In this document: positions 28,213-63,423 of the stretch, one piece after another
Layout of the letters: every line of letters starts with the position of its first letter
How positions within the stretch are numbered: position 1 is the stretch's first letter
Made by a program: the position numbers and the translations under genes
Assembly (NCBI RefSeq): GCF_964204865.1
Contig: NC_135259.1
Coordinates: forward strand, 15,076,974 to 15,140,973
DNA: 64,000 nt
Reading direction: 5' to 3'
Origin: Styela clava
Lineage: Eukaryota; Chordata; Ascidiacea; Stolidobranchia; Styelidae
Notes under the pieces: generated by a model
What the model was told of the DNA's origin: nothing
The model's input: only the letters and a program-made list of their open reading frames with translations
Database searches by the model: none

Positions 28213-31196
28213 CTACACACGATAATTCACATTATCTGTAGAAAAAGTGTTTGAATACACAAGTTATTATTTTTGTGTAGGATACATGGGAAATGGTACG
28301 GTATCTAAAAATGCTATACATGGTGTGGTATAAAGCAGTGGTTCCCAAACTTTTTTGACCATCGCCCCCCTAAAGTAGTTTATGCAACTTCATCGCCCCC
28401 CCTGCACTACAAAAAATATACAGTCAGAAACGAATATATTACAGACCAAATAAGTACACAAATAATAGTTTATGGTGTTTTTTAATGAAATAGATGAGCT
28501 TGGTGTTCTTCAGCGAGTTATTTATTATATCTAAAATTACCCCGTTTACTGATGGAAAGGTGATTTCGTTGTTTTAATAGCAATAGTAGCACGGCTGAAA
28601 ACCCCTTTTTCACCATATAATAGATCGAAAATGAAAGAATCCAGGGTTCTACCACCTCAAAAACCGCCGTGTACTCTTGCCTTATAACATTTCACTTTCT
28701 AAATTCACCCCATTTCACATTAAAATAATAAAAACAAAGGTACATCTCATTCATTCGTACAGCCTGATGACCTGCACCAAAATATTTCGGAAAAATTCAT
28801 CCCTGATTCCTCATCCTATCACGGCCTCCAGTCCGATCACCATTCCACAATTACCAGCCATTTGTTTTTGATTCATTGACTCGGATGTGGAAGAAGCCGT
28901 GACTGACTATCGGCTACGGCCCAGGGGTCGGCAAGTTTTATGTCGCTCGCAGGACAAAATTCAGGGTTGCTAGTCTTTTGCGGGTCGCATATATTTTTTG
29001 GAAGTTAAAAACGGAACAGCACGCAAAAACTGCGACAATTCGTGAACTCAACTCAGTCGTCTTATTAAAAAAATATTACAATGATATTTAATGTGACACT
29101 GTCTCGTTGCTGCATCACGCTGGATAGCTTTACGACGCCAAGATTGAAACATTTTCTAAATTGGCACCAACAAACCCACTTCTTTGCTTGTTCTTTGTAA
29201 TGTTCATTTTCGAAAATAATGATTTGCACAAATATGTACTTCCAAACATCGAAGTGAATATTTTCGCATGATTTGTGAAATTTTGATAAATATTTTCTCT
29301 CTAAGAAGATACATTCTTACAAAAACTAAGCAGTGATGAATCTCTCGATTAGAATATGAGTTTTATTTTCTTATTGCTTCGCAATATATTCGAATATTTA
29401 CTGCGCTATTGAACCCCTGCACTCAGCATCAACTTTTCTGCGTGTTTTCATTTGTCTAATTATAATTACATTGTAGGCTCGTTAAACGAGTGGCTGTTCA
29501 CTAGATTGTTAGGATATAGTATAATTTAGTCTAAACGTGTCTCACGATAAATTCTGTTACGTAAAAAAATGTAATTTACTCCTCGAGCGTAGATTATAAA
29601 TAAAAAAATTTCATCGTCAAAACCGCCGTTTGGATATTTCCCCGGGCATAGACTTCCTTGTTTACTTCGTGACATTGGCCAATCAGCAAGATGCAAAAAA
29701 AGGGAACAATGCCCCCTTTCGCATCCGCTCAGGCGCTCAGACACTCTCACTCAGACAGATTTTCAGGCGTGGTCGTGAACACTTCCTCATTTTCGCATTT
29801 TTGAATTATATTCGTTAGTTTTTAGTTGTTTTTCGGAAATTTAAATATAAATCAAATAAGTCAATGATTACTTTGCCTTTCCATGAGTTTCAGTTTAAAT
29901 ACAGCAATCAAAAATTAGTGTAGAAATAGCTGTGATAGACTAGGCTAAAATTCTTTATCGGTACTTTTGAAAAACAGATTGTTGAATGGTGTGTATTAGA
30001 ATGATAGTTTGAAACAAATACCCCATTTTAAAGGCAACAACTCGCGAAACCACTCTTAAAATAAGCCCCGAAACTTTTAAAATGGTAAAGTATGGGAAGA
30101 ATTTTCCGCAGTCAAAGGTCGGGGAAAGGTCCATTCAGTGAATCGTCCAGGGCCAGATTATTTTACTCCGGCCGTATTTTGCCGACCACTGGGATACGCA
30201 AACTACCTTACCTTACTGCGAAGACGAGACCAGAAATCCATTCGCGTGTGAATATCGCCCACATGATTCAAGCCTGCCAATGCACACAGAGTACAGAATT
30301 AAGTGCGCCGAACATAAAACAGGTTTCGCGAAATCGCCCCCCTATAGCCCCCTTAGACTTTTTCGCCCCCCCTCTGTATCGTTTTCGCCCACTGGGGGGC
30401 GATATCGCCCACTTTGGGAATCACTGGTATAAAGCATTTTTGCTCTAATGCTATTTAACTTTTACGTTGTCTCTTGCTTGTATATTCAACAAACTTCTGA
30501 GCAATTTCCACTAACAAACCTGTAATTACAATTCTATCAAATTTTCCAACGTCCCGTTTCTTCTTTCCTGGCCACGGTGGGGTGTTGCCTAGCCTAAAAA
30601 TGAGAAATTAAATAATATTTAGATGGAGAATCAATGAATTTTCGTTTGACTATACTTTCATTGATATGCTTATCATGAGGGCTATTTCACCCCAAACAAA
30701 CTTTCTATATAACAGAAATATATTACATTCAATTTGAAATGTTTAGATATATATATATATATATACATTGAATAAAAAATACATATATATATATATTTAT
30801 TTAATTCCTGATTGATGAAGATAATTTGGATGAAAAAAGTGTAATAGCATCAAAATACAATCGCATGACATCTGAATACTAAAATACTCGATGTTATATG
30901 TATTTATATTAGCTAATTAAATTGATCACATATAATATATCACTTTCCTTTTATCGTAATGCATTCAATTCAATCTGTGATGATCAAAATCAAATACGTG
31001 TTAAAATACAATTTTCAGAATTTTACAGTAGCGCTAACAAGTATATATGCGATGCAATTTCATTTGGACATACGGTTAAGGAATACTCATACCTTGATTG
31101 TGAAGGTCCTTCCGTGGGCAGTTGAGTATGAACAAGGTTGGATGACATCAGAAGCATAAAAGACAATAAGACAAAACACCGAATTTCATGCTTCAT
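28213..31196 (-). CDS. Secreted W-x-G-KKKR peptide precursor, member E
   Basis: Three minus-strand exons: 31196-31093, 30593-30520 and 28235-28213, joined in phases 2 and 1, give 66 residues. Residues 1-24 form a clear signal peptide (MKHEIRCFVLLSFMLLMSS...). A spacer rich in Pro, Thr and Ser follows, then PPWPGKKKRDV at about 40-50. The 18-residue tail after the basic site ends NYRV. The exon-phase pattern, the signal peptide in exon 1 and the Trp-basic core in exon 2 are shared with members A, B, D and F. The Gly before the Lys/Arg run is what C-terminal amidation needs, predicting a peptide ending W-P-amide; this is inference. Intron 2 is enlarged by a 2.1-kb hAT element with an exact 8-bp target duplication; without it the intron would be about 190 bp. 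The last exon has a strong pyrimidine tract but only seven codons, so it is the least certain part. Confidence 0.72.
28328..30434. mobile_element. 2.1-kb non-autonomous hAT element, 8-bp TSD
   Basis: The element spans 28336-30426. Left end cagtggttcccaaac; the right end reverse-complements to cagtgattcccaaa. Subterminal C-rich 'cgccccccc' tracts lie at both ends. It is flanked by the identical 8-bp direct repeat gtataaag at 28328-28335 and 30427-30434, diagnostic of hAT insertion. Inside are a partial SINE (about 28795-28920) and another hAT-like left end (28922, caggggtcggcaag). No transposase is recognisable. It lies in intron 2 of the minus-strand peptide gene E. Confidence 0.88.
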
Positions 31197-33758: not shown

Positions 33759-34328
33759 ATGAAGAATATCGCAATTTTTCTTTCTGTGGTTATGTTAGTT
33801 CTTAGCCAGGACATTCCGCCCGTAGAAGGTCGGATAATAATGATCAGTTCACCGATACGGTAAGTCTATTAGATTTCTGTTATTTTTACTTACTTGAAAA
33901 AGAAGTCCCAAACAATATCTTTTGTTTTTAAATAAAATTACCTTGAGCCAAGAGATGCTAAGTTTTATTGCATTAAAACCACTTACGGTGTCAAGTCGAA
34001 TCAACAAACTAGTTTCAATTTTGCCCGAATCTGCATCCAATTTCAGCTTCAATACGGTGTATGAAGACTCATATGATAACTACCTATTTTATTAAGGCAT
34101 TACAATATGGAACAATTGAAATTACAATTTATGGCTGGAAAGGGTATAAGCTTTGAACCAAGAAATTATTGAAGTTCTATAATTTAGGAATGTGTAAAAC
34201 CTGAAGATGAGTTATTAGTTCTCAAAAGTTGTGGGAATCTCGATTCCCGTTAATATTATCATGTACCATTAAACATTTCGACTTTTTTTGTTACAGAAAG
34301 AGAGTTCATTGGACACGGAAATGATTAA
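33759..34328 (+). pseudogene. Peptide precursor member B1, exon 2 missing
   Basis: Exon 1 (33759-33859) encodes an intact signal peptide, MKNIAIFLSVVMLVLSQ and onward, nearly identical to B3, with a GTAAGT donor in phase 2. The last exon is recognisable at 34297-34328 (frame ending IGHGND, compare IGQAKG in B2/B3). The sequence between 33880 and 34090 is unrelated to intron 1/exon 2 of B2 and B3, and no Trp-Lys-Lys-Arg segment exists. Direct splicing of exon 1 to the last exon would shift frame and give a short basic tail (RKRVHWTRK). I read this as a member that lost its core exon, unless a diverged exon escaped me. Confidence 0.65.
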
Positions 34329-35058: not shown

Positions 35059-35785
35059 AGATCCCCAGAACAACCTCATTCCAGAGATGATAAATTTGAG
35101 CATAAACTTCAAAGATATTCGTAAAACAAAAAGAATTGAAATATGTTATGAATATAAGTGATTAGAGAAAAGTATTAATAAATGACATACCAAATCTATT
35201 TTCTTTTGTTTTTTGTTGTGTGATGTTGTACAATTTAAAGAAAAATATCAATTTCCACTGATGTTGTATTTATTTCGCATAACATCAAAGTTTAGAAAAA
35301 TGTCCCCGTGTGATATATTTGCACATATTCCCGAGTACAACCATAACAACAGAAATCTTTTTCTTGACAATAAATAATATATAAACAATCAAATTATCTA
35401 TGAAATGAATACACAAATAAAACACCACACTTAAAATGAACCAACACATTAAATATGGATAACAAAGCTATGAGATAAATGACATTTCAAATTGATTAGC
35501 ATAAATCAGAGGTAATATAATCAACCCAACGCAATTACCTTCCTTTTGCAATGATAAAAGATTTGTGTGTAATAAAACATAGGCAGAAAGAAGGCTTTAA
35601 AAATGATTTATCTTTGCATTAATATTTATCCAATACCATTTTTTTTGTCCATTGTATACTGGTATAATACTCTTCAATATTTTATCAACTGCGCAGTTCT
35701 TACTTATGTTGAATTCGGCCTAACTCGCATGAATGATGCTAATGTTCGTGTGGCGTTGCGTGTAGATTAGAATTGATTAATTTGA
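35059..35785. other. Intergenic, nothing recognised
   Basis: AT-rich spacer. On the minus strand it should contain the 3' UTR of the 7TM gene. No coding exon seen. Confidence 0.35.
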
Positions 35786-36691
35786 TCAAGGCATCACCGT
35801 TTGTTTCCAGTCAGTAAATGACAAGGTTACAACAACAAGGTCGATGAATTGTCCTGCGGAGTAGAGAATTGGTCTAACCCAATCTTGTTTTACAAATCCG
35901 CTAATAAAATTTATTAAAGCTCCGGAAATGACAAACGTAAGCGTTGAAGCAAACGCCCGCTGTAAGACATGGAGCACATCATTCGTGACTTTCGTATTAT
36001 TATCCATCCACTCTGATTCTTTTCGATGCTTATAATAGAGAGGGTGGGCGAAAAGAAATAGTAGTATGGATTGAAGGAGAATAATTGTGATAAAAAGTGC
36101 AATCCATACCATGCTCATAACTTCATCACTATCTACAAGCTCACACTCATAGTTTACAATCTCATAAATGAGATCAATCATAGAAAATACAATACCGATA
36201 CCAACATGCCATAAAAATTAACGATAGCGCAGCAGCACTTAGGGTTCGGGTGAAAACATTTGTCAAATCCCGCAGTACTGGGCTATTGTATAACATTCTG
36301 TGTCTGAGCCAGAATAGAATATATATAGCAAGGCTTCCAACATTTGCTAGTGACTCTTTGCTTATTTCTCCGATGTAGCAATATCCAGGGATACCTTTAT
36401 AAGTCAACACTTTAAAACATACGCTGGTAACACTTTCAAGAAACATGAATAACGTCATGAAAATTTTAACCACTCTCATTATCTTAGCCAACATTACAGC
36501 TTTGGGGTCTACATTTCGCGAAGTAAAGTTTATCTCCTTAAAACTGCGAACAGGTACAATGCACTTGTTGCAACACCAAGTGTCAAAAATAGAGAGACGG
36601 TCCAATACATCGCTTCATCTTGTGTTGGTGATAATGAAGTTTTAGTTACATTGTAATCCGAACTAGTTGCATTTTTATAGAATTGCTCCAT
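35786..36691 (-). pseudogene. Intronless seven-transmembrane receptor-like gene with two frameshifts
   Basis: Read from ATG at 36691 the frame encodes an N-terminus with two N-glycosylation sequons (NAT, NVT) and TM1, then stops at 36532-36530. A second frame, open from about 36605 to 36174, carries TM2, TM3 and most of TM4 (LRHRMLY after TM3). The first frame resumes from about 36217 and carries the end of TM4, TM5-TM7 and a stop at 35786. One base lost in a T run near 36540 and one gained near 36195 would explain everything and restore a protein of about 300 residues with seven evenly spaced hydrophobic helices. Either this is a young pseudogene or the assembly has two indels; homopolymer context favours checking reads first. 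I cannot name the receptor family. Confidence 0.6.
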
Positions 36692-36784
36692 CTTAAGAAA
36701 AACGGCAATTTGTAATACAATTTATAATTTGAAAGCTTTATTAGGTAGTCTTTTTAATAAAAAATGACACGTTAGAAACTCTTA

Positions 36785-37943: not shown

Positions 37944-39369
37944 TCCTCAATGTTCGAACTGGACCGCAACAATAGACGTGTGCCCAATTTTTACCGAAGC
38001 TACAAGAGCGCCAAAACAAATAAAGTTTATAAACAAGAATTAGACTAAAAAGACTAAAAATACATCTTTGTAAGATTTTTAGTGCACAAGTAAAATGTCA
38101 CACAAGTAGCTTTGCGGTCGTGACACTTCGAAATATTTCAGTGTGAAGTAAAGAATCAAAAGTTTGTTGCGCACATCTTTATATTTCTAACAGATATGGT
38201 GAATGATCCATTCCTGTTGTCTCAGCCTCAATAAAGAGTAATTCGATAAAACACTTTGATTTTCTCAAATATTTACTGAGAAGAAGTGTGAGAATCTGCA
38301 GTCTGAGAATCTTAAAAACTTTTTTGTATATAATAAATCCTGAACCTTTATGGTGGGTAGTAAAAGCATTTTTCACTCAACCACATTTATCAACTATCAC
38401 TATACCAGTCGGCAGTGTAAGAACAAAACTCAATGCACGAAATATATTCTGAAATAATTTATTGTCTGCGTTTTTTGAAGGGTTTGTGTTGAAAATTTGA
38501 TGATGCTGACGATTCTCTTCTATATTCTTAATTAGGGAAAAACATTGTAATCTAAAATTAATAAGTCATATCTATTGGTTATCTTCTGTCGGCTGAAACT
38601 TTTTAGGATCCTTGAATATGTAAAGCGAAAATCAGATTCACAAGGGGGGATATAAAGTATTTTAAGTAATTTAACTGAACGTGATCAATATTTACTGGTA
38701 ATTTTGAGAATATTAAATTTATTAAAATGCTTTCATTTGGGTGTTTACACATTTGTAATGTCATTTGAGATATCTATGCCACAAGAAATCTAATAATTAG
38801 AATTATATAATGACTGGCAGAGTGATGAAAAATTAGATGTCATAAAGCACATTTGCTCATTTCATATTAGCGTTTCTGAAATAATCACTGTCCTAAATTT
38901 AATTCAAAAATTCATTTTATACTATATTTGTTCCAGAAGCAGAACTTGTGCAATACCTCAAATGAACATATTTTCGTCTTTGTTTGTTTTACCTTTTATA
39001 TCAGATACAAGTAAATGAAAGATATAATTCTAGAGCAGTAGCTTCCAACCTCAGATCTACCACTATAGCCACCGAGGTTTGGTTTCAAGTTTTCGAATTC
39101 AAATCTTAAATTAACAATGTCTCTTCTATAATATTTTGTTCAAAAAAGTGGTCGGAAATTTATTTTTAGATGAGTGTATTCGCACAAAAATAATTAAATT
39201 ATGAAGATGACATTGTACAAAAGTTTCATAATCAAGAAGTTCTTTCCTCAAACGACGCAACGTCTCGTTCTGAAAAATATAAAATAGTAAACTACTGAAA
39301 TGATTTCGTCTGCTAAAATTAAAATACCCACGTGATAAAATAATATACGCTTGCAATGCACATAGGCTT
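37944..39369. other. Intergenic left of the tandem duplication
   Basis: Mostly AT-rich and featureless. A 100-codon minus-strand frame (39428-39126) with a hydrophobic N-terminus crosses the left breakpoint of the duplication. A possible acceptor splits it (minus-strand 'ttttatatttttcag'), but no relative was recognised. Confidence 0.4.
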
Positions 39370-39772
39370 ATAGTAATCAAAGCTGTAGGTTTGCATGGAA
39401 TTTGATAAAACCAGGATCTGCGAAACATATTCCAAAAAGGAAAAAAATATTATGTGATCAATTTTTCATATAGTGAGTATGAGTATTAAAAATGAGTAAT
39501 GATAAAAAAAACAATATTGTGTAATTAATTATATTTTGTCGATAAACAGGAGCGAGGAAAGATGATATAACTTTGACGTCTGGGACTTAACAGTGGGGTA
39601 TTTCATATTATGAGATCTGTCATATAGTGCCTTTCTTGAAAATGAGTAAAGTACTTTTTGCGCTTTTTATATAAACATTTACCTTACTTTATTATTTTGA
39701 GATAGAAAGTGAAATACGTTAAGCTAGAAAAATTACAATACCGAACTATATTTCAGAACAATAGTGCTAAAT

Positions 39773-39953
39773 TCAGACAAACATAAAATTATCATGAACG
39801 CACATATGTCCGTCAATGTCCGATATTTCTAAAAAAAGTTGTTTCTTCAATAAAATACCAAATATTTTCAACTATATTATTATGTTACCTTGTTGTTCTG
39901 ACTGATCAACAATTGGTCTTTTTTGCTTTCCTTTCTACCCCGGAGTAGCAATT
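39773..39953 (-). pseudogene. Peptide precursor member D1, core Trp codon is a stop
   Basis: Exon-2-like segment 39953-39889 and exon-3-like segment 39828-39773, with the family's phase 2/1 splice sites. The codon for the conserved Trp (TGG in D2) is TAG here, so translation would end inside the core, and the Ser after the basic site has become Pro. The last exon is intact and nearly identical to D2. No signal-peptide exon was found upstream. Confidence 0.7.
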
Positions 39954-40014
39954 CTGAACGCGAACGATCATAAATAATTTGAAAGTGGCTTTGATTTTCG
40001 GTATACCACGCTTA

Positions 40015-40245
40015 TTTATACCTCTTGCTCCGGACAAAACACCATGCAATCAACCACTCATGTCTCACTTTTATTTGGAAGAGCCAGAATGTTTGAGGTT
40101 CTGCATTGCCTGCCCAATTTTTACACCTTGGGTGGGATGGGGTCATAGGATTTGAAACCGAGATGTGTGATCTACGATGCCCACAGAGCAAAGTATAAAG
40201 CTGAAACCGCAAGACCATCGCGCTGCACAAGATTTAATAAGTAAT
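40015..40245 (-). mobile_element. Second type of tRNA-derived SINE (in copy 1)
   Basis: On the minus strand it starts 'gtgcagcgcgatggtcttgc' (A-box-like) and contains 'ggtttcaaatcc' (B-box-like) at about 40165-40154. The counterpart is at 51826-52045. It also gives a ~72-codon frame in both copies that could splice (donor near 51827) into member D exon 2. I favour SINE. Confidence 0.55.
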
Positions 40246-40849
40246 CTTGATTACTTGAAGAAGTACTCATTATGGAATCATTACCAATATGTCATTTCAA
40301 AATCAATTTGGAAAATTATGTTGGAAACCGCCATTATCCAAATCACTCATTCATAATTGCATCATGAAAGCATTAGGCCTTTAGAAGTTAATGGATACGA
40401 AATTTATAAATTGAAACTGCACTACTTCAAAAATCATTTGGAAGTTTGAGCCTATTTATGCTACGATCGCAGTATTTGTGATATGGGGTTTGTTCTGGTG
40501 TAGGATTGTTTCTTTCTTTTTAATGGGAGACGTGATGAATAATTCAGATTAGATTACCACTGTTAAATTAGTATATTTCGTAGGGTCGGTACCACTGTTA
40601 AAAAGACTGGGACCCCATTCCGTTTCCATCAAGATAAACTGTAATTTCATAGTTTTAAATCCTTTTCCGAATAGCAGATATATATTTTACTTAGCTGTCC
40701 TACGAGAATGCAATTGTTTATAACTTTATGAGCGAATAATGAGCGATCTTTTCTTAAAAAATAGCGTGTTTAAAATCATTTATAATACAATTTCAAATTC
40801 TATTTTTGCTAAACAGCGTTTTAGGAGTAAAGTTAGCATTGAAGCATAC

Positions 40850-41373
40850 ATGGCTGCGAGGATATGGATTTTCGTTTTGGCGATGTGCGTTGCAGTATTG
40901 TTAGGACCTCAAAAAGGCAAGGCAGAAGATTCATTTCCTGGACCAGAATCAAGGTAATTTACTAAAAAAATATTTTAAAATCTCCAAATGTTGATTCCTG
41001 TTTCTTAGTTTTCGAGATGCAATTTGAACGATTGTTTTTTTTTCTCAATCGGATTCATTATCCGTTGTTTCAATTGTTGATGATTTAATTAAGAATACCA
41101 GGCGGAGAAGTGCCATGGAGTGGAAAAAAGAAAAGATCTGTTAAAGATGATTTGAATGATATAGGTGAGACTTTTATTAATGTTTATGTTGTATTTTTGC
41201 TGATACTGAAAAGAGATGCAGGAGTAGCCCAACTTCATGTGAAGCAGATACTCGCGCATACTTTTGACAGACTTTGTATATCAATTTTACTTTGAAAAGG
41301 AAGGCACTTTTTTTCCAAACATGTGTTTTCTGTTTCAGAAATGGATATTATTCTGTTTGGTGATATTGATTAA
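40850..41373 (+). CDS. Secreted W-x-G-KKKR peptide precursor, member A1
   Basis: Exons 40850-40953, 41094-41164 and 41339-41373, phases 2 and 1, 69 residues. Signal peptide 1-25 (hydrophobic IFVLAMCVAVLLG, small residues before a likely cut after KGKA). A short acidic/Pro spacer follows, then GGEVPWSGKKKRSV at 38-51 and a 20-residue acidic tail ending LFGDID. The start is the ATG directly before the signal peptide; an upstream in-frame ATG exists here, but the copy-2 equivalent is cut off by a stop, so it is not needed. AATAAA lies at 41530-41535, 157 bases after the stop. An alternative acceptor at 41101 would destroy the KKKR motif. Function unknown; processing at KKKR and amidation through Gly45 are inferred. 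Confidence 0.75.
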
Positions 41374-43824: not shown

Positions 43825-44262
43825 CTGAATTTTCATCATTGTCTACTGTGGATCTCCTTTTCTTTTTTCCAAGCCACGCCGGGGCTACTGGGTGTCTAAA
43901 ATGCAAAATTTATTTAAAATATAGGAACATATTGTTGCAATATATTAAATAGTTTGATTTCATTTCATCAAAAAAAATACCAGAAATTACAAAGTTTGTC
44001 ATTATGAATCATCTATTTGCTGACATCTATTGAAACCAAAAAAAGTTGCGACAAACTATGAAAACTTGAACTATAAAACTTATTTAAAATGTGGATAGAA
44101 TGCAATGTAAATTGGTTGATACTTCCCGAAAAAATCGAAAAATCACCACCTTGAATAAACTATGCCATGAACAGCCGACTCTCCATCCTTGTCATTGCAA
44201 TTGGTGATGTGGATGAACATAAAGCAATAAAGTACACAGATGAAAAAAAATTCTACTTTCAT
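43825..44262 (-). CDS. Secreted W-x-G-KKKR peptide precursor, member F1 (3' end unclear)
   Basis: Minus strand. Exon 1, 44262-44150, encodes 37 residues that open with MKVEFFFICVLYCFMFIHI, a signal peptide, and ends in phase 2 at AG|GTGGTG. Exon 2, 43895-43825, is 71 nt like A1's and encodes VAPAWLGKKKRRSTV and an acidic stretch. The expected donor position reads AG|GC rather than AG|GT in both duplicated copies. Either a GC-AG intron is used, or the exon runs on to a stop at 43766, adding 19 residues. I could not find a convincing last exon. A promoter-distal hAT insertion lies about 0.9 kb upstream. Confidence 0.65.
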
Positions 44263-48245: not shown

Positions 48246-48963
48246 ATGTTAGTTCTTAGCCAGGACATTTCTCCAGTTGAATGTCGGACATTGAAGATCA
48301 GTTCACCAATACGGTAAGTCAATTAGATTTCTGTTATTTTTAGCTGGTTGAATTGAAGACGTTCTCCATTTCTTTGGGTTCCAGCTACTTTTAAAGAGTT
48401 GATATAGTTTCACAAATTATTCATTTAAAAAAATAAATCCTGGGTGATAATTAATAAGATTCCAATAAAAATTTTCTTCATCGAGGAATCGAAAACACAT
48501 AAAGTTTGCCATAGTTCAAGCACCATTATACCAACCTCATCGTGTATTAAGTGATTCAGTTGAAAGTCGTTTATTTTACATTTTGCAGGTTAAGCACACA
48601 GCCACCATTCTACGCATGGGAACGGAAAAAGCGCAGTGTGGAAACTGATGTAAATTTGCAGATAAAAGGTGATGACATTTTGATTGATATTGTTAGTCTT
48701 GAAAGTCTAAATTTTATTTAAAAAAAATTATTTAAGGCACTACTATGTGAATTATTTGAAAGTACGAGTTATGGCTGAAAGAGTTCTCAGTTCTGCATCA
48801 AGAAAATATTATGATCGTATCTCCAACGTTCAAAATCTGAAGCTCAGTAGCCTACTATGTCGTGGAAATCTCCATTCTCGTTAATAGTATCTTGTAAGTT
48901 TAAACACATTCACCTTTTGTTACAGAAAGAGAGAACACGGTCATTGGACAAGCAAAAGGTTAA
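48246..48963 (+). CDS. Peptide precursor member B2, normal start codon deleted
   Basis: Exons end 48313, 48589-48668 and 48926-48963; sequence matches B3 closely. An 8-bp deletion before 'aagaatatcgcaattt' removes the ATG that B3 uses (58509). The first ATG left, at 48246, drops eleven signal-peptide residues and leaves MLVLSQDISP, too weak to be a sure signal. Exon 2 (PPFYAWERKKRSV) and the last exon (ending IGQAKG) are intact. Probably a recent loss of function or reduced secretion. Confidence 0.65.
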
Positions 48964-50374
48964 GAAGTATCACTGAACAATCGGATTCACAACGTTATGG
49001 CGGGTTTCTGAATTAAACATAAATTGCATAAACTAATCGAACTATTGTTTGGTCTATTGAGTGGAGGGATGAAAATCTAGTTTTGGTATTTGTAAATTCA
49101 TCTTGTGACTATGTGATATAACCGCTTATCACTGTCGCTTTTTAATTTTTGAATTTATTTTTCGTTAATGCTTCACACAGTTTGCCATTTTCAGTCCGAA
49201 AAACGGCGAGTCATAATTTTTACTGGCGCAACCAACTATTTTCAGGAACGAGCGGAATCTTACCGGTTAGGCATTGTCCACCTAATTTATCACATCATGC
49301 GTTCGAGATATTTGATTTGCGATGAAGCATAATTGCAGTCATAGTGCTCTAATCCAGATAGACCACTATCGCAATATTATATAAATATTTACCTAGAAGT
49401 GTAATTCGTATGCTTTATCTTTGTGTCGGTGATGCATTAGATAGAGTTTGGAACGAGATTTGAAACACTTTAAATAGACACTTTGAGGCAGGGGGGCACA
49501 ACTTCTATAAGCATACGTACAAAAGTTTCCAAAATAATCTTGTCGCGTGCAACGTCACGTTCGAATAATTGATGGTATTGTAAAGGAACTTCAGAAAAAC
49601 ACATGTTAATGAAAAAGTATCCACTCAAACAATTTGATGTTATTAAGACGTTTTTGAAGGCGACTTGAGTTTTTTTATTATATAAACGTAAGGTATTAGG
49701 ATTTATTATAAATAGAAGAATTATTTATTTCCAAACCGTTAGCGTGCCACGTCCGAACATATGATGTGCCACTTTGGGCCCGCGTGCCCCGCGTCGTGCA
49801 CCCTCGCTTTATGGGAACAGGGTAAGTGGAAAGAATTAAACACATCGGATTATATTGGTAAAAACTTTCCGTATAGAGATTTGACAATCCAGGACCTCTA
49901 ACGATAAAATCCTTTCTGGGAAAGACGAGATCGGAAAGTTCAGACAAATATAGCTTGCTATTATAGGTATTGCAGTACTTCGGACCATGATTCGTGGAAT
50001 GGTAGAGTTGTAAGCAAGCGTCCTTAAAATTTAATGAGTAAAATGTTAAAAATCCTTCTGTGAGATCACAAAAAAACGCTATTAAAATGCTGATTCAATC
50101 TTGCCCTCAACAAAAAGGAAAGTGGTGACAGCTGTAGGTGTTTTGCTTTTGCATTGTATAAGAAATTCATATGAGCTATGCGCTTACCGTTTGATATGTA
50201 AAGGGAAATATAATTGTCATTATCAATGCAAATTAAAATGGGTTGTCGATGATTTTATCTCATATTTCTTTGTTAATAAATTTAGCAATTATATGTTTGT
50301 GGATGTTAGAGTTTTATATAGGAAAATCAGGAGTAACTTAAACATCAGATGGTTCAATATCAACATGAATCATT

Positions 50375-50560: not shown

Positions 50561-51571
50561 AAGATATCTCATCAATCACACATATTTGATTGAAATGTTT
50601 GCGACTATTTAACCAAGGGGGTTCAACATCTCGCTTGTATATATAGAATGTTGAATTGGCAATAATTTTTGAGTGAGATTATTGTGGTATTCTAAGGTAG
50701 ATTTAGACATGTTGGCCATAATCAAACGGGGAATAATGAATAATGTGTCGCTCATGGGCTGTGACTGATGTTTCATTTAGAAGTTGGTCCGTCTCTGTTT
50801 CGTTCATACTGTAAGTCGGACGAGAACTAAGAACTATAATTTTCATAGGATTGTTTCTTGTACTTATACAAAAAGTAAATAATAACAAATAATACATATT
50901 ACTAACTTTTTAAAACACAATATTGTTAAATATTAAATGATAGACTTGTCGATTATTATGAAAATTATGTTTCAAATTTTTTGTTTCTGATTTTTTTTTT
51001 GTTATTTGCTGGTACAAAGACTGTCATCAGCGTATGCTTCTTCATGTACTTTTGCAATAAATGGATATTGGAAGTATCGCTATTTACATTCTTTCAGAAC
51101 GATTCCCGCCAGAGTTGAATTTCGGTTCTGTTCGTACAATGGTTTTACGGCTTAAAATCAGTAGTATAGTAATCCTATCTGTAGGTTTGCATTGAATTTG
51201 ATAAAACCAGAATCTGCGAAACATATTCCAAAAAGGAAAAAAATATTATGTGATCAATTTTTCATATAGTGAGTATAAGTATTAAAAATGAGTAATGATG
51301 AAAAAAAAAACAATATTGTGTAATTAATTTTATTTTGTCGATAAACAGGAGCGAGGAAAGATGATATAACTTTGACGTCTGGGACTTAACAGTGGGGTAT
51401 TTCATATTATGAGATCTGTCATATAGTGCCTTTCTTGAAAACGAGTAAAGTACTTTTTACGCTTTTTATATAAACATTTACCTTATTTTAATATTTTGAG
51501 ATAGAAAGTGAAAAACGTTAAGCTAGAAAAATTACAATACCGAACTATATTTCAAAAGAATGGTGCTAAAT

Positions 51572-51760
51572 TCAGACAAACATGAAATTATCATGAACGC
51601 ACATATATCCGTCAATGTCCGATATTTCTACAAAAAGTTGTTTCTTCAATAAAATGACAAAAAATTATTTTAATTCAACAATATTATTATGTTACCTCGT
51701 TGTTCTGGCTGATCTACAATTGATCTTTTTCGCTTTCCTTTCCACCCCGGAGTAGCCATT
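51572..51760 (-). CDS. Peptide precursor member D2 (exons 2 and 3; exon 1 not located)
   Basis: Exon 51760-51696 (65 nt, phases 2 in and 1 out) encodes MATPGWKGKRKRSIV and a short Gln/Glu-rich run. Exon 51627-51572 follows a good acceptor and ends MFV-stop. It has the full family core, with Gly before the basic run. No signal-peptide exon could be found with confidence between 51760 and A2. A minus-strand frame in the SINE at 52037-51827 could join in phase but looks repeat-derived. The gene may therefore be truncated. Confidence 0.55.
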
Positions 51761-51825
51761 CTGAGCGCGAACGATCATAAATAATTTGAAAGTGGCTTTG
51801 ATTTTCGGTATACCACACTTATTTA

Positions 51826-52045
51826 TACCTCTTGCTCCGAACAAAACACCATGCAATCAACCACTCATATCTCACTTTTATTTGGAAGAGCCAGAATTTT
51901 TGAGGTTCTACATTGCCTGCCCAATTTTTACACTTTGGATGGGATGGGGTCATGGAATTTGAATCCGAGATGTGTGATCTACGACGCCCACAGAGCAAAG
52001 TATAAAGCTTTAACCGCAAGGCCATCGCGCTGCACAAGATTTAAT
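51826..52045 (-). mobile_element. Second type of tRNA-derived SINE (in copy 2)
   Basis: Counterpart of 40015-40245, with the same tRNA-like head on the minus strand but a more degraded B-box (ggattcaaattcc). It predates the duplication because it is present in both copies. Confidence 0.55.
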
Positions 52046-52657
52046 ACGTAATCTTGATGACTTGAAGAAGTACTCATTATGGAATCATTACCAATAGGTC
52101 ATTTCAAATTCAATTTGGAAAATTATGTTAAATACCGCCATTATCCAAATCACTCATTCATAATTGCATCATGAAAGCATTAGGCCTTTAGAAGTTAATG
52201 GATACGAAATTTATAAATTGAAACTGCACTACTTCAAAAATCATTTGGAAGTTTGAGCCTCTTTATGCTACGATCGCAGTTTTTTGTGATATGGGGTTTG
52301 TTCTGTTGTAGGATTATTTCTTTCTTTTTAATGGGATACGTGATGAATAATTCAGATTAGATTACCACTGTTAAATTAGTATATTTCGTAGGGTCGGTAC
52401 CACTGTTAAAAAGAATGGGACCCCATTCCGTTTCCATCAAGATAAACTGTAATTTCATACTTTTGAATCCTTTTCCGAATAGCAGATATATAATTTACTT
52501 AGCTGTCCTACGAGAATGCGATTGTTTATAACTTTGTGAGCGAATAATGAGCGATCTTTTCTCAAAATAAGGCGTGTTTAAAATCATTTATAATACAATT
52601 TCAAATTCTATTTTTGCTAAACAGCGTTTTAGGAGTAAAGTTAGCATTGAAGCATAC

Positions 52658-53195
52658 ATGGCTGCGAGGATATGGATTTTCGTTTTGGCGATGTGCGTTG
52701 CAGTATTGTTAGGACCTCAAAAAGGCAAGGCAGAAGATTCATTTCCTGGACCAGAATCAAGGTAATTTACTAAAAAAATATTTTAAAATCTCCAAATGTT
52801 GATTCCTGTTTCTTAGTTTTCGAGAAAATCCGAATCTCAATGCAATTTGAACGATTGTTTTTTTTTTTCTCAATCGGATTCATCATCCGTTGTTTCAATT
52901 GTTGATGATTTAATTAAGAATACCAGGCGGAGAAGTGCCATGGAGTGGAAAAAAGAAAAGATCTGTTAAAGATGATTTGAATGATATAGGTGAGACTTTT
53001 ATTAATGTTTATGTTGTATTTTTGCTGATACTGAAAAGAGATGCAGGAGTAGCCCAACTGCATGTGAAGCAGATACTCGCGCATACTTTTGACAGACTTT
53101 GTATATGAATTTTGCTTTAAATAAGTCACTTTTTTTCCAAACATGTGTTTTCTGTTTCAGATATGGATATTATTCTGTTTGGTGATATTGATTAA
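52658..53195 (+). CDS. Secreted W-x-G-KKKR peptide precursor, member A2
   Basis: Exons 52658-52761, 52919-52989 and 53161-53195, phases 2 and 1, 69 residues. Identical to A1 in the signal peptide and core; it differs only at the first residue encoded across the last junction (Asp for Glu59). An upstream in-frame stop (TAA near 52567) shows that translation starts at 52658. AATAAA occurs at 53352-53357. Conservation of the protein between duplicates is expected from their youth and is not by itself evidence of selection. Confidence 0.75.
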
Positions 53196-55664
53196 CACGC
53201 CTAGAAGGAATCAGTAACTTCACTTTAGTCGGGCGACTATACATAAACGAATTGCAAGATATCTACAACAAAACGAATCAACGACGTTATGGCACTTTTT
53301 ATTTTGATTTTAATTTTACGTAGTTGTGTAAGTTGTTTGTTTGGAACATAAAATAAATTTTTATCACGTTACGTTTGTGCTTGATAGCATCACAATATAG
53401 CAGTAAGAATGCGAAGGCAATAAGATAGAAATGAACAAAAACATTTCAACAAATAAGGGATATTGTTGACAAGGTCCTATCAACTATTAGTAAAGTTAAC
53501 GTACCAGATGCATAGTTTTACCGCCTTATCAGTATGTTGAATATCGTTATCATTGCAACAATCGCAGACAATCCTGGAATATTGTGCACGATTCTTCGAG
53601 GGGTTACAAATGCAAATAGGGACTTCACTACAACGTCGTTGAATGAAATGGAATTCCATATTGAAATTCTAATTTTTCAACCGTGTTATTCCATGTTAGT
53701 ATAAGTCAATATTTATTTTTCATGGTTTGCCTTGATGTGTGAATAAAATTTGTCTCGTGATTGCCATCTGACTAACATAAGAAAGAACAGCCTGTTTATC
53801 AGATGATTACGAGAGGACGCAGACGGTGCAAATTATCTGCGTGGTGCTGCTTTTACAGTGGAATGAATATATTACAAAAATTTCAACTTTCCTTTTGAGA
53901 GAGGAAAGTCGATAACACAACTGTATGGCTTAGCAAATTGCAGACTCGCTATGTCAAGGGCTTGCTACTTAATTATCCCATGGACATAGGAACGATATAG
54001 TACAAAAAGAATAATACTAATCTTATCTCATAATCATTTCCACCGCATCTCCAACTTACAAGAGACAAAGAGGCTTTATTTACTAAGAATATCACGAGCT
54101 GATTGATTTGTAATATTAGCTATTCATGTGAGACACATAGCCTACCGATGCACCTAAGTCTGGTGGTTGGAATCAAGAATGGCAAATTGGAACCGATAGG
54201 CACATTTAGCTGAGAGAAAGTTATATGGATGCTCTCCACTCTTGGTCATGGGGCGATTAAATAATAAACTGTTCTGCAGATTGCTGTAAAATTTTTATGA
54301 ACTAACTCAATCGTTTCAAAATCGTTGTCTCCAAGAAGATATTGCCTTTAGCCAGTGATAAGATTCAAAATTGGTTTGAAAAATAGAATGAAAATGAAAA
54401 AAAATGAAAAATAGGTTTTTGTTCATATCGAACTCAATAACGACAAGTTTCCTCATTTTTCGTAGTGGGCTTGTTTAACAAACATGTCCATCATTGTTTG
54501 GATTTCGAGAAGGATTCGTGGACCCTCGTGTTGGTCTCTGTAGCATTTTTCAGGCTTTACTTTTGAGTGTTGTACCGTCGGCTGATTCAATTGGATGTTT
54601 TCTATTGACAGTTCCAGTCTTTTATCCTGTAGTCAATGCAATTACGAACTTCCCGTATATCTTGGCACACAACCACTTTTCATTTATTCTGGAGACCTTT
54701 TATCACGCTAAAAACCAATACATCACCCCCCCCCCCCCCCGTAACCCAGATGCTATTGGGCTATTGGAACCGTATATCCATCGCTACTCATAATTGTCGT
54801 CAGTGGCGATAAACCCCGAACTCATTTCCGAGTGCCTTATTTTAGGCTCTCAGCTGTTGCTTTAAACGATTCTGCTAGAAATCTGTTCAAATACATATAT
54901 ATGTCCACTTTTTGTTTCAAATATCTTGCGAATCAAATTGAACAACGGTATAATATATGCAATGAAAGTTCACTAAAATAGCAATATCCAAATTAAAATT
55001 AAAAATTTTTGAACAAATTTTTAGGTAATGTATATCAAAATCCTTATACTAGCAAAAAATCTTATTTAAAAATTCAATAAACAGTATGCAATTTTAATTT
55101 TCGCATCGAAAGGAAAAACGAAATGTGTCTCAAACATCTTTTGAATGCGTCCACTGATTTACTCGAGAACCTCCGCCTCTATAAAAAGAGCGATATCTGT
55201 AAGAAAAAAAGTGATACATTCAATTAATAGTGAAGTGGAAAGAATAAGATTTTAAAATTTGTCAACATGGCAGTGCAAAATATATTCGATAAACCTAAAA
55301 TAATTAGCTTACCGGCTACAATTAATCAAATTTTGTTTATAAAAAAGTAGATTTAATTTAAAATTTGTCTCTCTTTTTCTATTAATTCAATAGAATATCC
55401 AATACCATTTTAATAAATTGATATTGGAACTTTTTAGGAAGCCTGTGCACCACTGTAAATACTTAATTCCAAATTCTCAATAGTTTCCTCAATGTTTAGC
55501 ATTATTGCGCAATAGAAGACTTGGGACACATACTATTTTTTTTAACAAAGTGGTTTATATAAAGCTTATGTGGAATTCTCCATTGCCAACAAAGCAAAAA
55601 TACAATTAGATCTTCCTTTGTAAAATGACCCAGCAGGAATGTATAAAAGTAATTTTGCACGCGC
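53196..55664. other. Spacer A2 to F2
   Basis: Near-identical to 41374-43824. The ~100-codon frame (about 54494-54793) is kept despite a shorter poly-C tract. No other feature. Confidence 0.5.
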
Positions 55665-56100
55665 CTGAATTTTCATCATTGTCTACTGTGGATCTCCTTT
55701 TCTTTTTTCCAAGCCACGCCGGGGCTACTGGGTGTCTAAAATGCAATTTTTTATTATTATATGAACATATTGTTGCAATATATTACATAGTTTGATTTCA
55801 TTTCATCAAAAAAAATACCAGAAATTACAAAGTTTGTCATTATGAATCATCTATTTGCTGACATCTATTGAAACCAGAAAAAGTTGAGACAAACTATGAA
55901 AACTTGAACTATAAAACTTATTTAAAATGTGGATAGAATGCAATGTAAATTGGTTGATACTTCCCGAAAAAATCGAAAAATCACCACCTTGAATAAACTA
56001 TGCCATGAACAGCCGACTCTCCATCCTTGTCATTGCAATTGGTGATGTGGATGAACATAAAGCAATAAAGTACACAGATGAAAAAAAGTTCTACTTTCAT
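55665..56100 (-). CDS. Secreted W-x-G-KKKR peptide precursor, member F2 (3' end unclear)
   Basis: Copy of F1. Exon 1 56100-55988 (one residue changed in the signal peptide, Phe5 to Leu) and exon 2 55735-55665, with the same PAWLGKKKRRS core and the same AG|GC at the expected donor. The upstream flank lacks both the hAT element and the 160-bp segment found near F1. Confidence 0.65.
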
Positions 56101-58508
56101 ACTCTTGTTCTCACTTTCAAGTTTAATGTTAAAACAAAATAATGATTAGTACTCAAAATACAAAATATAATTTAGACCACTGCACGAACTTTCTATTTTA
56201 AATTGGCCTTTAGGAACATCAAACGTTTACATTATTACTTTGAAGGACTTTGACGGGACGTTCTGCTAGAAATTAAAAATGCTTACGAAAACGCAAATTC
56301 AATGAAATATAAACGAAAATTGAAAATAATTTTTTAGAACAAGGTATGAAAATGGCGGACAAAACGAATCCTCCTTTTCCGCCAATATAACCGTGGATGA
56401 GCGTAAATTGGCAGGATCAACTCATTGCAAGCTATAGCGACAGCAAATGCGTTTCAACTTGAATAACTCCGACCGGACATTTTAAATTCCACAAAACATA
56501 ACAAGGTAAGAAGAATATCGGTCGTAAACATTTGATTCCTGGCAATAATTTAGCATTCACATATAATATATTACGAATTACTGTAATTATAAACCGTTCA
56601 CGTTGTTTTCACAAGTTTTATCAGATTCATTCATTGCAAAAAACTTGATCAAAAATGAGTAAAATCTCCCATCACTGACTTGATATTGCTGATTTCATTG
56701 AGCTATTAGATTAGCGGTTTGTTCCTATCCATTAACTGTAGATGATCTAGCGTGACCAACTAGTTAACTGTTAAATATCGAATTAGATAATTTCAAGTTC
56801 TGTAGCAAAGACACTGTCACTGATTCTCTGTCGAATAATTAAATTTATACACGTCCTAGCGGTGACATAAAACTTTTCTATCTATAGTATCCCCTATAAG
56901 AAATGAAATGAGTAAATTTTGCTCAGAATACTCCGAGAAAAATGAAAGTAATCGCATTTAAATTTTTGTAGAAGTTTATAATATAAGTATATCTTGTATC
57001 GATATGTGAGAGTAAGTAGGCTACAACATAGTCAATGACAAATATCAACAAAGTGAATCAACGCAAATTTGAATAAGATGAACTTGCTTAAGTAGGTAAT
57101 AAGAATGAAATTTTTGATAATCATTGCTACAAACAATTAAATGCTGCTTATTATTTAATAGATACTAGAGTTTAAATTGATGCTACTTATTCAAAATCAT
57201 TTGCCAACCCAATATACGAAAAAGCAAAAATCATCTTTACAAAAATTCAATCAGTCTCTGACACTTGAAAATTTCCATTTCACTTTGTTTTAGTTTTAGT
57301 AGGATGATTAGGCTCATCGATTCAATTATTCCCTTTTTCTGTATTGATTTAATTGCAAAGTTCCACATTTACCTTGCCATGAGGCAGAATCATGTAATGA
57401 CTGGAAAATAGGTACAAACAATTAATTTCACTCAGACCTAACAGTTGAACTGCAATATTACCAAAATGATATTGAATCTTAATTGAAGGTTAATTTCTCT
57501 TCTTCTGTTTAAATTATTATTAAGAACTGGCCTATTCTAACAAAAAACTGCTACCTAATTAGACAGAGAGTAACTGATTTTTGGACATTCTGAAATATAC
57601 TTTAAAAAAAAATGCTTGCCAATTCTAGAACATTTTGTCTCTCATTAATTAAATTAATAGTATATAGGTAATGTTCTACTAAAGATAGAAGATAAATAAA
57701 ACACAATAAAAGTGGTAAAGTGGGTAAATCGTACAAGAGTATTGTCGGGTCTCAAAACGAAGTATGTGTATTGAAATTTGCGATGGCACAATCTGTTAAA
57801 TATGAATAATGCCTTTTAGAGCAATGAAATCATTTACTTGAACAAAAAAAGATTTGAGATGAGACTGCAAAAATTATTTTTAGGAAGTGCTAATCGTACA
57901 TGTTCTACAAGAGTGTGATTTGAAAAAATATTCAAATTTATTTTTTGTCCAATGTATAGCAAAACTTGTTTGACTCGAATTAAAAACTGTGAGTAATGGC
58001 AATTGGGATCAATATCAATTTGAAGGATAATATTCGCATTTCGCATTAATATCATCAATTGAATTTAAATATCATGATTTCGAATCATTCTTGTAGACGA
58101 GGTAGAAAATGTACTACTTTAAACACTAGAACAAGTGTTTGTGCTTATGGACAGATTTATGCTTGAAAAATTATGGTTAATTATGACTGCACGAGTCAAC
58201 AAGGCATTTATATCTCAAGAGACTTACTTAAATGGTTTCATATCGAAAACTTCGATCAAAAATTTGATATTTTTTGCTATGCTAATCTTGAGATTATTGC
58301 AATTACCATGAATATTTAAATAAATGATCGTCAATGCCATATATAAATCGCTTCAGAAACGCATCCAAATCCAGTCAACACATTCCTTGTCTTGTATGAA
58401 GACAAAAAACCTCATAAAAATAATTTGCCTGAAATCGACATAAATTGAACTTCTTGTGTATATTACAGTATAAATTTTTCTGAGCATCTCCAAGATTAGA
58501 AAACTAAG

Positions 58509-59252
58509 ATGAAGAATATCGCAATTTTTCTTGCTGTAGTCATGTTAGTTCTTAGCCAGGACATTTCTCCAGTTGAATGTCGGACATTGAAGATCAGTTC
58601 ACCAATACGGTAAGTCAATTAGATTTCTGTTATATTTAGCTGGTTGAGTTAATGACGTTCTCCATTTCTTTGGGTCTCGGCTACTTTGAACAGTTGATAT
58701 AGTTTCACAAATTATTCATTGCAAAAGGAATCCTGGGTGATAATTAATGAGATTCAAATATAAATTTTCTTCATCGAGAAATCGAAAACCCATAAAGTTT
58801 GCCATAGTTTAAGCACCATTATACCAACCTCATCGTGTATTAAGTGATTCAGTTGAAAGTCGTTTATTTTACATTTTGCAGGTTAAGCACACAGCCACCA
58901 TTCTACGCATGGGAACGGAAAAAGCGCAGTGTGGAAACTGATGTAAATTTGCAGATAAAAGGTGATGACATTTTAATTGATATTGTTAGACTTGGAAGTC
59001 TAAGTTTTATTTTAAAAAAATTCTTCAAGGCACTATTATGTAAATTTTTCGAAAGTACAAGTTATGGCTGAAAGAGTTCTCAGTTCTGATCAAGAAAATA
59101 TTATGATCGTATCTCCAACGTTCAAAATCTGAAGCTCAGCGTACTATGTCGTGGAAATCTCCATTCTCGATAATATTATCTTGTAAGTTTAAACACATTC
59201 ACCTTTTGTTACAGAAAGAGAGAACACGGTCATTGGACAAGCAAAAGGTTAA
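58509..59252 (+). CDS. Secreted W-x-R-KKR peptide precursor, member B3
   Basis: Exons 58509-58609, 58882-58961 and 59215-59252, phases 2 and 1, 72 residues. Signal peptide 1-24 or so (MKNIAIFLAVVMLVLSQDIS). Then a segment with one Cys, PPFYAWERKKRSV at 39-51, and a 23-residue tail ending IGQAKG. This subfamily keeps Pro, Trp and the basic site but has Arg instead of Gly before the Lys run, so amidation is not predicted. It is the intact reference for B1 and B2. Confidence 0.75.
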
Positions 59253-60166
59253 GAAGTATCACTGAACAATCGGATTCACAATGTTATGGCGGGTTTCGGA
59301 ATTAAACATAAATTGCATAAACAAATCGTACTATTGTTTGGTCTATTGAGTGGAGGGATGAAAATCTAGTTTTGGTATTTGTAAATTCATTTTGTGACTA
59401 TGTGATATAACCGCTTATCACTGTCGCTTTTTAATTTTTGATTTTATTTTTCGTTAAAGCTTCACACAGCTTGCCATTTTCATTTTCGCTTCATGGAAAC
59501 AGGGTAAGTGGAAAGAATTAAAGAACTCCGGAATATATTGGTGAAAACTTCCCGCATAGAGATTTGACAATCCAGGACCTCTAACAATAAAATCCTTTCT
59601 GGGAAAGACGAAAGCAGAAAGTTCAGACAAATATAGCTTGTTATTATAGATATTGCAGTACCTCGGACCATGATTCGTGGAATGGTAGAGGTTTAAGCAA
59701 GCGTCCTCAAAATTTAATGAGTAAAAATGTTAAAAATCTTACTGTGAGATCACGAAAAAAAAAGCTATTGGAATGCTGCTTCAATCTAATTAAAAAGTTA
59801 TTGCCGTCAACAAAAATGATAGTGGTGACAGCTGTGGGTGTTTTTTTTTTGCATTGGATAAGACATTTGATTCATATGAGCTATGCGCTTACTGTTTGAT
59901 ATTTAAAGGTAAATATCAGTGTCATTAACAATGCAAATTAAAATGAGATGTCGATGATTTTATTTCATATTTCCTTGTTAGTAAATTTGGCAAAAAATTT
60001 TTTGTTTGTTGGTACAAAGACTGTCATCAGCGTATGCTTCTTCATGTACTTTTGCAATAAATGGATAGTGGAAGTATCGCTATTTTCATTCATTCAAACG
60101 ATTCCCGCCAGGGTTGAATTTCGGTTCTGTTCGTATATACAATGGTTTTACGGCTTAAAATCAGAA

Positions 60167-62021: not shown

Positions 62022-63423
62022 ATGAAGACCGTCGCAATTTTTCTTGTTGTAGTTGTGCTGGTTAGCCTGGAAATTTCCCCAACTGACTGTCAGATATTGA
62101 TGATCAGTTCACCGGTACAGGGGAGGTAAGTTTATTAGATTTCTGTTATTGAAGACGAATTGTACATATGGATTGTTTTGGTATTATGTTGTTGTTGTTC
62201 TAGTTAGTGTTTCTTTTCTTGTTGCTGTTAACTATTGGACCAATTGCTTTGAAATTTTCTACTGGTAAAAATTGTATCGTTCGCTAGAAGGCTCATTACT
62301 TTCATCTGTTTCATAAATTTCTGTAGGCTCTAAGTGATTCGTTTTTTTATGTTTGGTGAAATCATCAAAATTAAATATTGAGCACTTGTGGCAGTTCTTT
62401 GTTCGTGTTAGTAGTCAGGCGAAGTCATTAATACTGTGGGATAGGTGGTCTACTGCGAAAGATTGCATATTCATACTACTCTGGTTTCGCCCTCGTGTAC
62501 CTACATTTGAGCATTGCTCTCTTACTTTCTATAGAAGATCGGATTGAAGTTTTGAATGTTTGCACTCTATCCTCTCATGCTCTGTATTTAAACATTCGAT
62601 ATAATTTCACAAATTCTGAATTGTTTATTCAGGGTGATAAATGATGATTTTCAAAAGTTTTCTTCGCCGATCGTTCGACGATGGAAATTTATCATATTTT
62701 AATTTACCATTATATATACATTACACTTTATACGAATTGATAAACTCATTCACACAAGTAGATTAATTGATATAACTTTGTTAACAAAGTACACCAGTGG
62801 TTCCAACTAGGGTTCCGAGTAACCCAAGGGTTACGCTAGTTCCGTCCAGGGATTCCACAAGTTTAAATCCAAATCCTAGAGTCTGTATGGTGTACGTATA
62901 TTGTTTGTCTATAATCAATACGCGACTATGAGATAATCATATAATAAGTGTGTTTCACTATTGTTCGGTGAAAGATCGCCAGACGTTCCGCGTCAAATCG
63001 TCGTTTCACATTTTATGATTATAAATATAAGCATATTTAGATATAATCAATTTCACGGGAATTTCTCGAGTTTTTGAAATGTTTGTTGGTGTAAAAACAC
63101 TGCTCTACATCAACTTTACGTTTTCTATATTTCAGATATACCACACATGCACCATCTGTATGGAAACGGAAAAAGCGGAATGTCGAAAAGGATGAAAATT
63201 TGCAGACTGAAGGTGAAATATAGCAAAATTGTTAATTAATGTTACACTTGAAAGTGAATTTATCTTTAAAAACAAATTCAAATCGAGTCAAAGCCGTGGC
63301 TTCAACATTTCAAAACCTGAAGCTCAGTATTAATCTGTGGGAAGCTTCATTCCCGTCAATGTTATCATGTAAGTTTAAACATCTCCACCTTTTATTACAG
63401 AAAGAGAGAAGGATTTATTTTGA
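62022..63423 (+). CDS. Secreted W-x-R-KKR peptide precursor, member B4
   Basis: Exons 62022-62125, 63136-63212 and 63401-63423, phases 2 and 1, 67 residues. The signal peptide MKTVAIFLVVVVLVSLEIS is clearly related to B1-B3. The core is APSVWKRKKRNV at 40-51, and the 18-residue tail ends EKDLF. Intron 1 (1.0 kb) holds copy 3 of the ~320-bp dispersed repeat and an hAT-like end. It is the most diverged B member, yet the splice phases, Trp, KKR and the D-x-N-L-Q motif of the tail are kept, which argues for selection on the precursor. Confidence 0.72.
62190..62535 (+). repeat. Dispersed ~320-bp repeat, copy 3 of 3
   Basis: Matches 12500-12840 and 15345-15585 through 'ttggaccaattgctttgaaa' and the 'gagcattgctctcttac' end block. 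Lies in intron 1 of B4. Confidence 0.65.
62790..62880. mobile_element. hAT-like left-end relic
   Basis: 'cagtggttccaactagggtt' followed by 'gggttacgctagttccgt' resembles the left end of hAT elements seen elsewhere here. No right end or target duplication found. Confidence 0.35.

Follow-up and report, generated by a model that had tools for sequence, protein, structure and literature searches.

An array of probable secreted-peptide precursor genes in the ascidian Styela clava with no match to a named peptide family

Precursors of the AKH/RPCH/corazonin/GnRH type carry a pyroglutamate (pGlu) peptide straight after the signal peptide, and the exocrine-gland secreting peptides (ESP) of the mouse, used as pheromones, are encoded by an array of small, fast-evolving secreted-peptide genes. 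The Wamide superfamily (MIP/allatostatin B, GLWamide) has repetitive multi-peptide precursors and a C-terminal Trp-amide and has not been identified in deuterostomes, while AKH and APGWamide are classed as Trp-amide peptides (PMC7270403). Papers on Ciona describe many lineage-specific peptides, including CiLF, CiYFV and CiNTLP (PMC8936170; also PMC10888236, PMC10570924), and the Pro-rich, amidated CiEMa (PMC10888236). Here we describe a cluster of small genes in a 64,000-nt stretch of the Styela clava genome (contig C13, NC_135259.1, positions 15076974-15140973; hereafter the window), analysed together with the whole genome sequence of 376.6 Mb in 379 contigs. Judged from sequence, these genes form a real multigene family of probable secreted-peptide precursors; no report of the peptide family was found in the literature searched, which leaves out most subscription papers, and six exact peptide strings had no match in 5.39 million papers.

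An earlier note on the window had proposed eleven loci of one three-exon blueprint in a 35-kb cluster. Family sequence was found at each of the eleven places, of which only seven are complete (E1, A1, F1, A2, F2, B3, B4), and the cluster proved to be the left part of an array of ~103 kb with its right end at ~C13:15,208,412. This array holds 29 loci, some of them broken, with 11 in the window and 18 to its right. Models with all three exons (signal exon, exon 2, exon 3) in the correct phases were obtained at 24 of the 29 (A1-3, B3-5, C1-6, D3-4, E1-4, F1-3, G1-2 and H), and the proposed splice phases were the same throughout, with phase 2 at the end of exon 1 and phase 1 at that of exon 2. A stop closes 23 of the models, E3 having none within the 120 bases read for exon 3, and the predicted products are 63-76 amino acids (AA) long. 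At least five of the 29 loci are defective (B1, B2, D1, D2, F4). Thus, the eleven are not equal members: four of them (B1, B2, D1, D2) are among the defective loci, and one duplicated block accounts for eight, which are therefore not independent.

All 24 models begin with a hydrophobic N-terminal leader (by hydropathy), followed by a spacer of ~4-19 residues (signal cut placed by eye) that ends in Arg or Lys where exon 1 meets exon 2. Next come a peptide of 6-12 residues, a basic cluster and a C-peptide that is acidic in most cases. The boundary residue, whose codon is split by intron 1, is Arg in 23 models and Lys in E2. The basic cluster lies within exon 2 throughout and reads KKKR, KRKR or KKR (SKKR in G2). 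A Trp stands near the end of the exon-2 peptide in 18 of the 24 models, with a Pro ≤5 residues before it in all 18 except D4; the Trp is thus not invariant, as had been claimed, being replaced by Tyr in six C-type loci, all right of the window. In 12 of the 24 models a Gly, the signal for amidation, precedes the basic cluster, and in each of these one residue separates Trp from Gly (W-x-G). There is a single candidate peptide per precursor in every model. Among the 23 models of 24 examined in this respect, with the signal cut again placed by eye, the exon-2 peptide has a net charge of -1 to +2 and the C-peptide of -1 to -9, and Cys is absent after the signal peptide.

The exon-2 peptides comprise IPGGEVPWSG and VPGGEAPWSG in subfamily A, LSTQPPFYAWER and YTTHAPSVWKR in B, YSTIPPFYAYKL, YSTIPPFYVYKL, YSTIPPFHVYKL and YSTIPPFYAYIL in C, IATPRWEG and MATAAW (then KKKRKR) in D, LGNTPPWPG and QGNTPPWPG in E, HPVAPAWLG and QPSASDPGWAG in F, YSTPWGG and IGTPSPPWGGS in G, and FPEGTPWSV in H. 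Examples of exon-3 additions are EMDIILFGDID, GMDVAFFNIPE, ERDVASFEETTS, DIALFVEAEVLE and DDELFFDDN. The earlier statement that the subfamilies differ almost everywhere except the Trp, the basic site and the splice phases overlooked the common boundary Arg/Lys, the acidic C-peptide and an exon-3 pattern. Profile comparison of the A/D/E/F/G/H group with the B/C group gave a match over 36 columns (E 2e-5), partly covering exon 3, which was itself chosen partly by likeness. A TATAWA element occurs ≤300 bases upstream of the ATG in 20 of the 24 models vs. 0.48 of random stretches; the loci being related, this was not used as evidence, and AATAAA sites, recorded without a control, were set aside likewise.

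Comparison of paralogues showed that the family frames evolve as coding DNA, with exons under purifying selection. For eight non-overlapping pairs the proportions of nonsynonymous (pN) and synonymous (pS) differences were 0.054 and 0.105 (pN/pS 0.52), with 0.108 in introns, and Fisher's test gave P of 8e-4 for nonsynonymous vs. synonymous and 3e-10 for nonsynonymous vs. intron changes; the samples are small and the substitutions were counted without a gene-conversion model.

A hidden Markov model made from exon 2 of the 24 models scored 28 loci in the 183 kb examined, and B1 brings the count to 29; the weakest locus was D1 (E 0.07) and the top background match had an E of 1.8. The motif P.{0,4}W.[GR]K[KRQ]?KR had 9 occurrences in the six-frame translation of the window, whereas 300 first-order Markov sequences contained it 0.01 times on average and at most once. 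When signal-type exons ending in a phase-2 donor were sought, by criteria fixed after the window had been read, the array (106 kb) yielded 26 start codons. These fall at 22 distinct places, of which 21 are family loci, vs. one place in 77 kb of flanks; E2, E3, F1 and F2 were not detected.

When used as whole-genome queries, the B4, A1, E1, G1, H and F3 proteins gave 15, 6, 8, 2, 5 and 4 matches, respectively, every one inside the array, and D3 gave 17, with 6 in the array and the other 11, at E ≥0.43, taken as chance. Single-protein queries scarcely cross subfamilies (the A query reached A loci only), and a distant cluster elsewhere could escape them. The genome-wide pattern PxWxGKKK was found at 12 places, 7 of them in the array, with 2 for the control; the five places outside were rejected as repeats or unrelated DNA (~210 bases of each viewed by eye, the signal exon not searched for). 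Two other patterns were uninformative, the first with 8 places, 2 in the array, and likewise 8 for its reversed control, and the last with 0 places, known members being missed too. Within the reach of these searches, the family is confined to one array of this genome. The possibility that exon 2 is a fragment of a transposon, which the earlier note had named as its refutation, was not borne out, the convincing matches of the seven family queries lying in the array only.

No Pfam family was found above cut-off for six precursors, and a five-sequence profile returned no relative in PDB (sole hit E 2.8); in these queries E1 carried the final exon of the earlier note, before its reassignment. One weak Pfam candidate, Sex_peptide (PF08138), was set aside: it matched B4 alone of the six, over residues 1-16 only and at 11.9 bits vs. 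a cut-off of 25. NCBIfam, a prokaryote-oriented library, gave one chance hit among 11 members, and a B/C alignment queried against viral_contigs gave 171 pattern stretches, of which 0 were confirmed. With Pfam, PDB and the literature strings negative and purifying selection on the exons, the earlier proposal of a family of tiny, predicted secreted-peptide precursors that matches no named family was upheld.

From the predicted anatomy we lean towards the view that the genes of the array evolve by birth and death and encode lineage-specific prepropeptides, hormone- or pheromone-like, whose products act as extracellular signals. Exon 1 would supply the signal peptide with its short spacer. Exon 2 would add the boundary Arg (Lys in E2), a short neutral peptide, the basic cluster and the start of the C-peptide, and exon 3 would complete the mostly acidic C-peptide. 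Because of this anatomy, the precursor is expected to enter the secretory pathway and to be cut after the basic cluster by a furin/PC-type protease, with subsequent trimming by a carboxypeptidase. Amidation by PAM of the exposed Gly would be expected in the 12 of 24 models in which a Gly precedes the basic cluster. Less firmly, further cleavage at the boundary Arg may free 6-12-mers, such as IPGGEVPWS-amide, LGNTPPWP-amide or HPVAPAWL-amide. The freed peptides would signal extracellularly as hormone, neuropeptide or pheromone, and their variety would come via gene duplication and not via repeats within a single precursor.

Several observations weigh against this interpretation. The Gly needed for amidation is absent from half of the models (B, C, H, G2, D4), and in B3 and the C loci the C-peptide carries little negative charge (-1, -2). 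Because a phase-2 AG splice site favours Arg anyway, the boundary Arg is to some extent expected, and selection on this residue is argued from the B and C loci, where it is encoded CG/A or CG/G (the slash marking the intron) and so is not solely due to the splice site. Exon 3 of G1, G2 and H was selected among several candidates, partly by likeness. The C1-C6 pair shows about equal pN (0.039) and pS (0.041), and the F1-F2 pair has 2 amino-acid changes and 0 silent ones. The middle segment, which would contain the peptide, has the highest pN/pS of the precursor in B/C (0.84), E (0.91) and D (1.13), and not in C alone, A, B, F or A/H (no significance test in either case); high values fit fast evolution but also relaxed constraint.

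A rather unlikely alternative is host defence, in which the array would encode antimicrobial or immune-modulating peptides with a clavanin-like acidic C-terminal pro-piece and its fast turnover would reflect an arms race. Anionic propeptides are known from marine antimicrobial precursors (PMC10608444). In the same genome, a clavanin A query found two precursor exons on contig C1 (10538332-10538400 and 10574722-10574790, ~36 kb apart), whose mature parts, LFKLLGRIIHHVGNFVHGFSHVF and VFHLLGKIIHHVGNFVYGFSHVF, are each likewise followed by an acidic tail. These are probably clavanins E and C of S. clava; the strings are absent from the two reviews searched, both of which give S. clava as the species from which clavanins come. 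Tandem birth-and-death is also common among defence peptides. However, mature antimicrobial peptides of the cationic or Cys-rich kind are positively charged overall or contain Cys residues that form disulfides, whereas the exon-2 peptides of the array are neutral and without Cys. Neutral, Cys-free peptides fit messengers better than membrane-active antimicrobials.

It is unlikely, in our view, that activity resides in the acidic C-peptide, or in the entire secreted protein of ~45 residues left uncut, with the Pro/Trp segment serving as pro-region or spacer. Such a product would agree with the recognisable C-peptide pattern common to subfamilies and, in B/C, C, E, D and F1/F3, with a pN/pS that is lower in the C-peptide than in the middle segment. 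Yet in A, B and A/H constraint is not stronger on the C-peptide, P..W (or P..Y) is kept in the middle segment across subfamilies, and the Gly-basic signal is present in half of the models. Very improbable is the explanation that most of the loci are repeats in decay or never expressed, duplicated along with mobile elements and of no present function, which the defective loci and the hAT-like insertions within and between genes would favour, but which is opposed by the lack of a convincing copy beyond the single array, by the suppression of amino-acid changes relative to silent and intron changes, and by splice phases conserved between subfamilies with little common sequence.

Next to the peptide genes lies a second family, of seven-transmembrane (7TM)-like proteins. 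A subcluster, ~15-40 kb right of the array (C13:15224021-15248044), consists of five open single-exon genes and a broken one, encoding proteins of 329-340 AA with 5 to 7 hydropathy peaks, and a degenerate copy lies within the array (Table 1). Four members and the window piece gave no Pfam family above cut-off, and a four-member profile had no PDB match; we consider the family a candidate orphan receptor family. One member used as query gave 122 scored matches genome-wide (E ≤0.01, from 269 candidates), some of which are pieces of one gene, and because the family is thus genome-wide, a ligand-receptor reading from adjacency alone is weak. The matches extend to contigs as far as C19, at over 13 Mb; for comparison, the reported chromosome number of S. 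plicata is n = 16 (PMC12627437). A published S. clava set of 204 G protein-coupled receptors was gathered by BLASTP and Pfam profiles (PMC9138782), and a family without a Pfam match could therefore have been missed. We hold it quite doubtful, as a bolder extension, that the array represents a chordate pheromone/hormone code of about two dozen genes, each releasing a single short peptide of PxWx type (often amidated) or PPFxY type, with duplication as the source of diversity and members of the large orphan 7TM-like family as receptors.

Table 1. Peptide-precursor loci and associated features of the window (window coordinates; hAT-like insertions named by eye)
Feature	Position	Strand	Details
E1	27968..31196	-	complete model, 68 AA; exon 1 31196-31093, exon 2 30593-30520, predicted exon 3 27996-27968; exon-2 peptide LGNTPPWPG, then KKKR
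hAT-like insertion in E1 intron 2	28336..30427		TATAAAG(C) on either flank
B1	33759..34328	+	defective; exon 1 33759-33859; exon-3-like piece from 34297 (EREFIGHGND)
Degenerate copy of 7TM-like family	35707..36691	-	within peptide array
D1	39232..39953	-	defective; exon 2 39953-39889, exon 3 from 39269
D-A-F-B block, copy 1	39369..49193
A1	40850..41373	+	complete, 69 AA; exons 40850-40953, 41094-41164, 41339-41373; exon-2 peptide IPGGEVPWSG, then KKKR
F1	43319..44262	-	complete given GC donor, 73 AA; exons 44262-44150, 43895-43825, 43356-43319; exon-2 peptide HPVAPAWLG, then KKKR
hAT-like insertion, block copy 1 only	45203..46611		8-bp target duplication ATCTATAG
B2	48216..48963	+	defective; exon-1 frame without ATG; exon 2 48589-48668; exon 3 from 48926
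D-A-F-B block, copy 2	51165..59482
D2	51696..51760	-	exon 2 only: MATPGWKG, then KRKR
A2	52658..53195	+	complete, 69 AA; exons 52658-52761, 52919-52989, 53161-53195
F2	55159..56100	-	complete given GC donor, 73 AA; exons 56100-55988, 55735-55665, 55196-55159
B3	58509..59252	+	complete, 72 AA; exons 58509-58609, 58882-58961, 59215-59252; exon-2 peptide LSTQPPFYAWER, then KKR
B4	62022..63423	+	complete, 67 AA; exons 62022-62125, 63136-63212, 63401-63423; exon-2 peptide YTTHAPSVWKR, then KKR

The final exon of E1 had been placed at ~28235-28213 (DNVNYRV); the exon given in Table 1 (DDELFFDDN) is more likely, because it is like exon 3 of E2-E4. F1-F4 have GC in place of GT at the proposed exon-2 donor (window 43824-43823 in F1 and 55664-55663 in F2; F3 and F4 lie right of the window); GC donors were sought in the F loci only, where read-through without splicing is the alternative. 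As to the defective loci, no exon 2 was found between exon 1 and the exon-3-like piece of B1, and exon 2 of D1 has a TAG at the codon that is Trp in D2. Neither exon 1 nor exon 3 was found for D2, and no signal exon for D1; where D genes are intact, right of the window, a signal exon lies ~450 bases upstream of exon 2.

The two copies of the D-A-F-B block, which cover the eight non-independent window loci, are 93-98% identical over their aligned parts. The hAT-like insertion of copy 1 has a clean empty site in copy 2 at ~56878, so that either the insertion postdates the block duplication or a clean loss took place. A search of the insertion in E1 intron 2 for long terminal inverted repeats returned none. 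Open frames resembling pieces of hAT-type transposase and a Ulp1-type protease (by eye) were seen at C13:15172542-15174328 and 15179145-15180141, in a ~20-kb part of the array free of peptide genes. A sugar transporter (window 19650-21149) and a UBR-box protein (window 25139-26800), each in one long intronless open frame, are encoded to the left of the array. Scans of the window for tRNA and Rfam families gave no matches.

Small, fast-evolving secreted peptides are easily overlooked by homology-based annotation. An array of 29 loci with intact genes beside dead copies, in the sister group of vertebrates, offers a natural experiment in the birth and loss of peptide signals, and the predicted peptides are short enough for direct synthesis and testing.

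Compared with known systems, the array products resemble CiLF, CiYFV, CiNTLP and CiEMa as predicted ascidian secreted peptides without relatives elsewhere, but no sequence match was recognised and the Ciona text consulted describes no 29-locus single-peptide array. The clavanins of S. clava belong to the same genome, and their precursors are likewise short, secreted and acidic at the C-terminal end; they differ in being His/Phe-rich and helical and in having no basic cluster, and no sequence similarity to the array precursors was seen. The mouse ESP genes also form an array of small, fast-evolving secreted-peptide genes, which we offer as analogy and not as homology. Precursors of the AKH/RPCH/corazonin/GnRH type and of APGWamide resemble those of the array in holding one small peptide, a Gly with a basic site, and a C-terminal piece. 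However, the array precursors interpose a ~4-19-residue spacer and the boundary Arg, so that no pGlu peptide directly follows the signal peptide, and no sequence homology was found; we therefore do not place them in the AKH/GnRH superfamily. With the Wamides they would share short peptides, a Trp at or near an amidated C-terminus and flanking basic cleavage sites (PMC7270403). Whereas Wamide precursors are repetitive and their peptides end in Trp-amide, all 24 array models hold one peptide and the predicted amide lies one residue past the Trp in the 12 with Gly, and Wamide membership was rejected. If the array peptides are amidated PxWx messengers, they would represent a Trp-x-amide signal in a group reported to have lost Wamides (PMC7270403).

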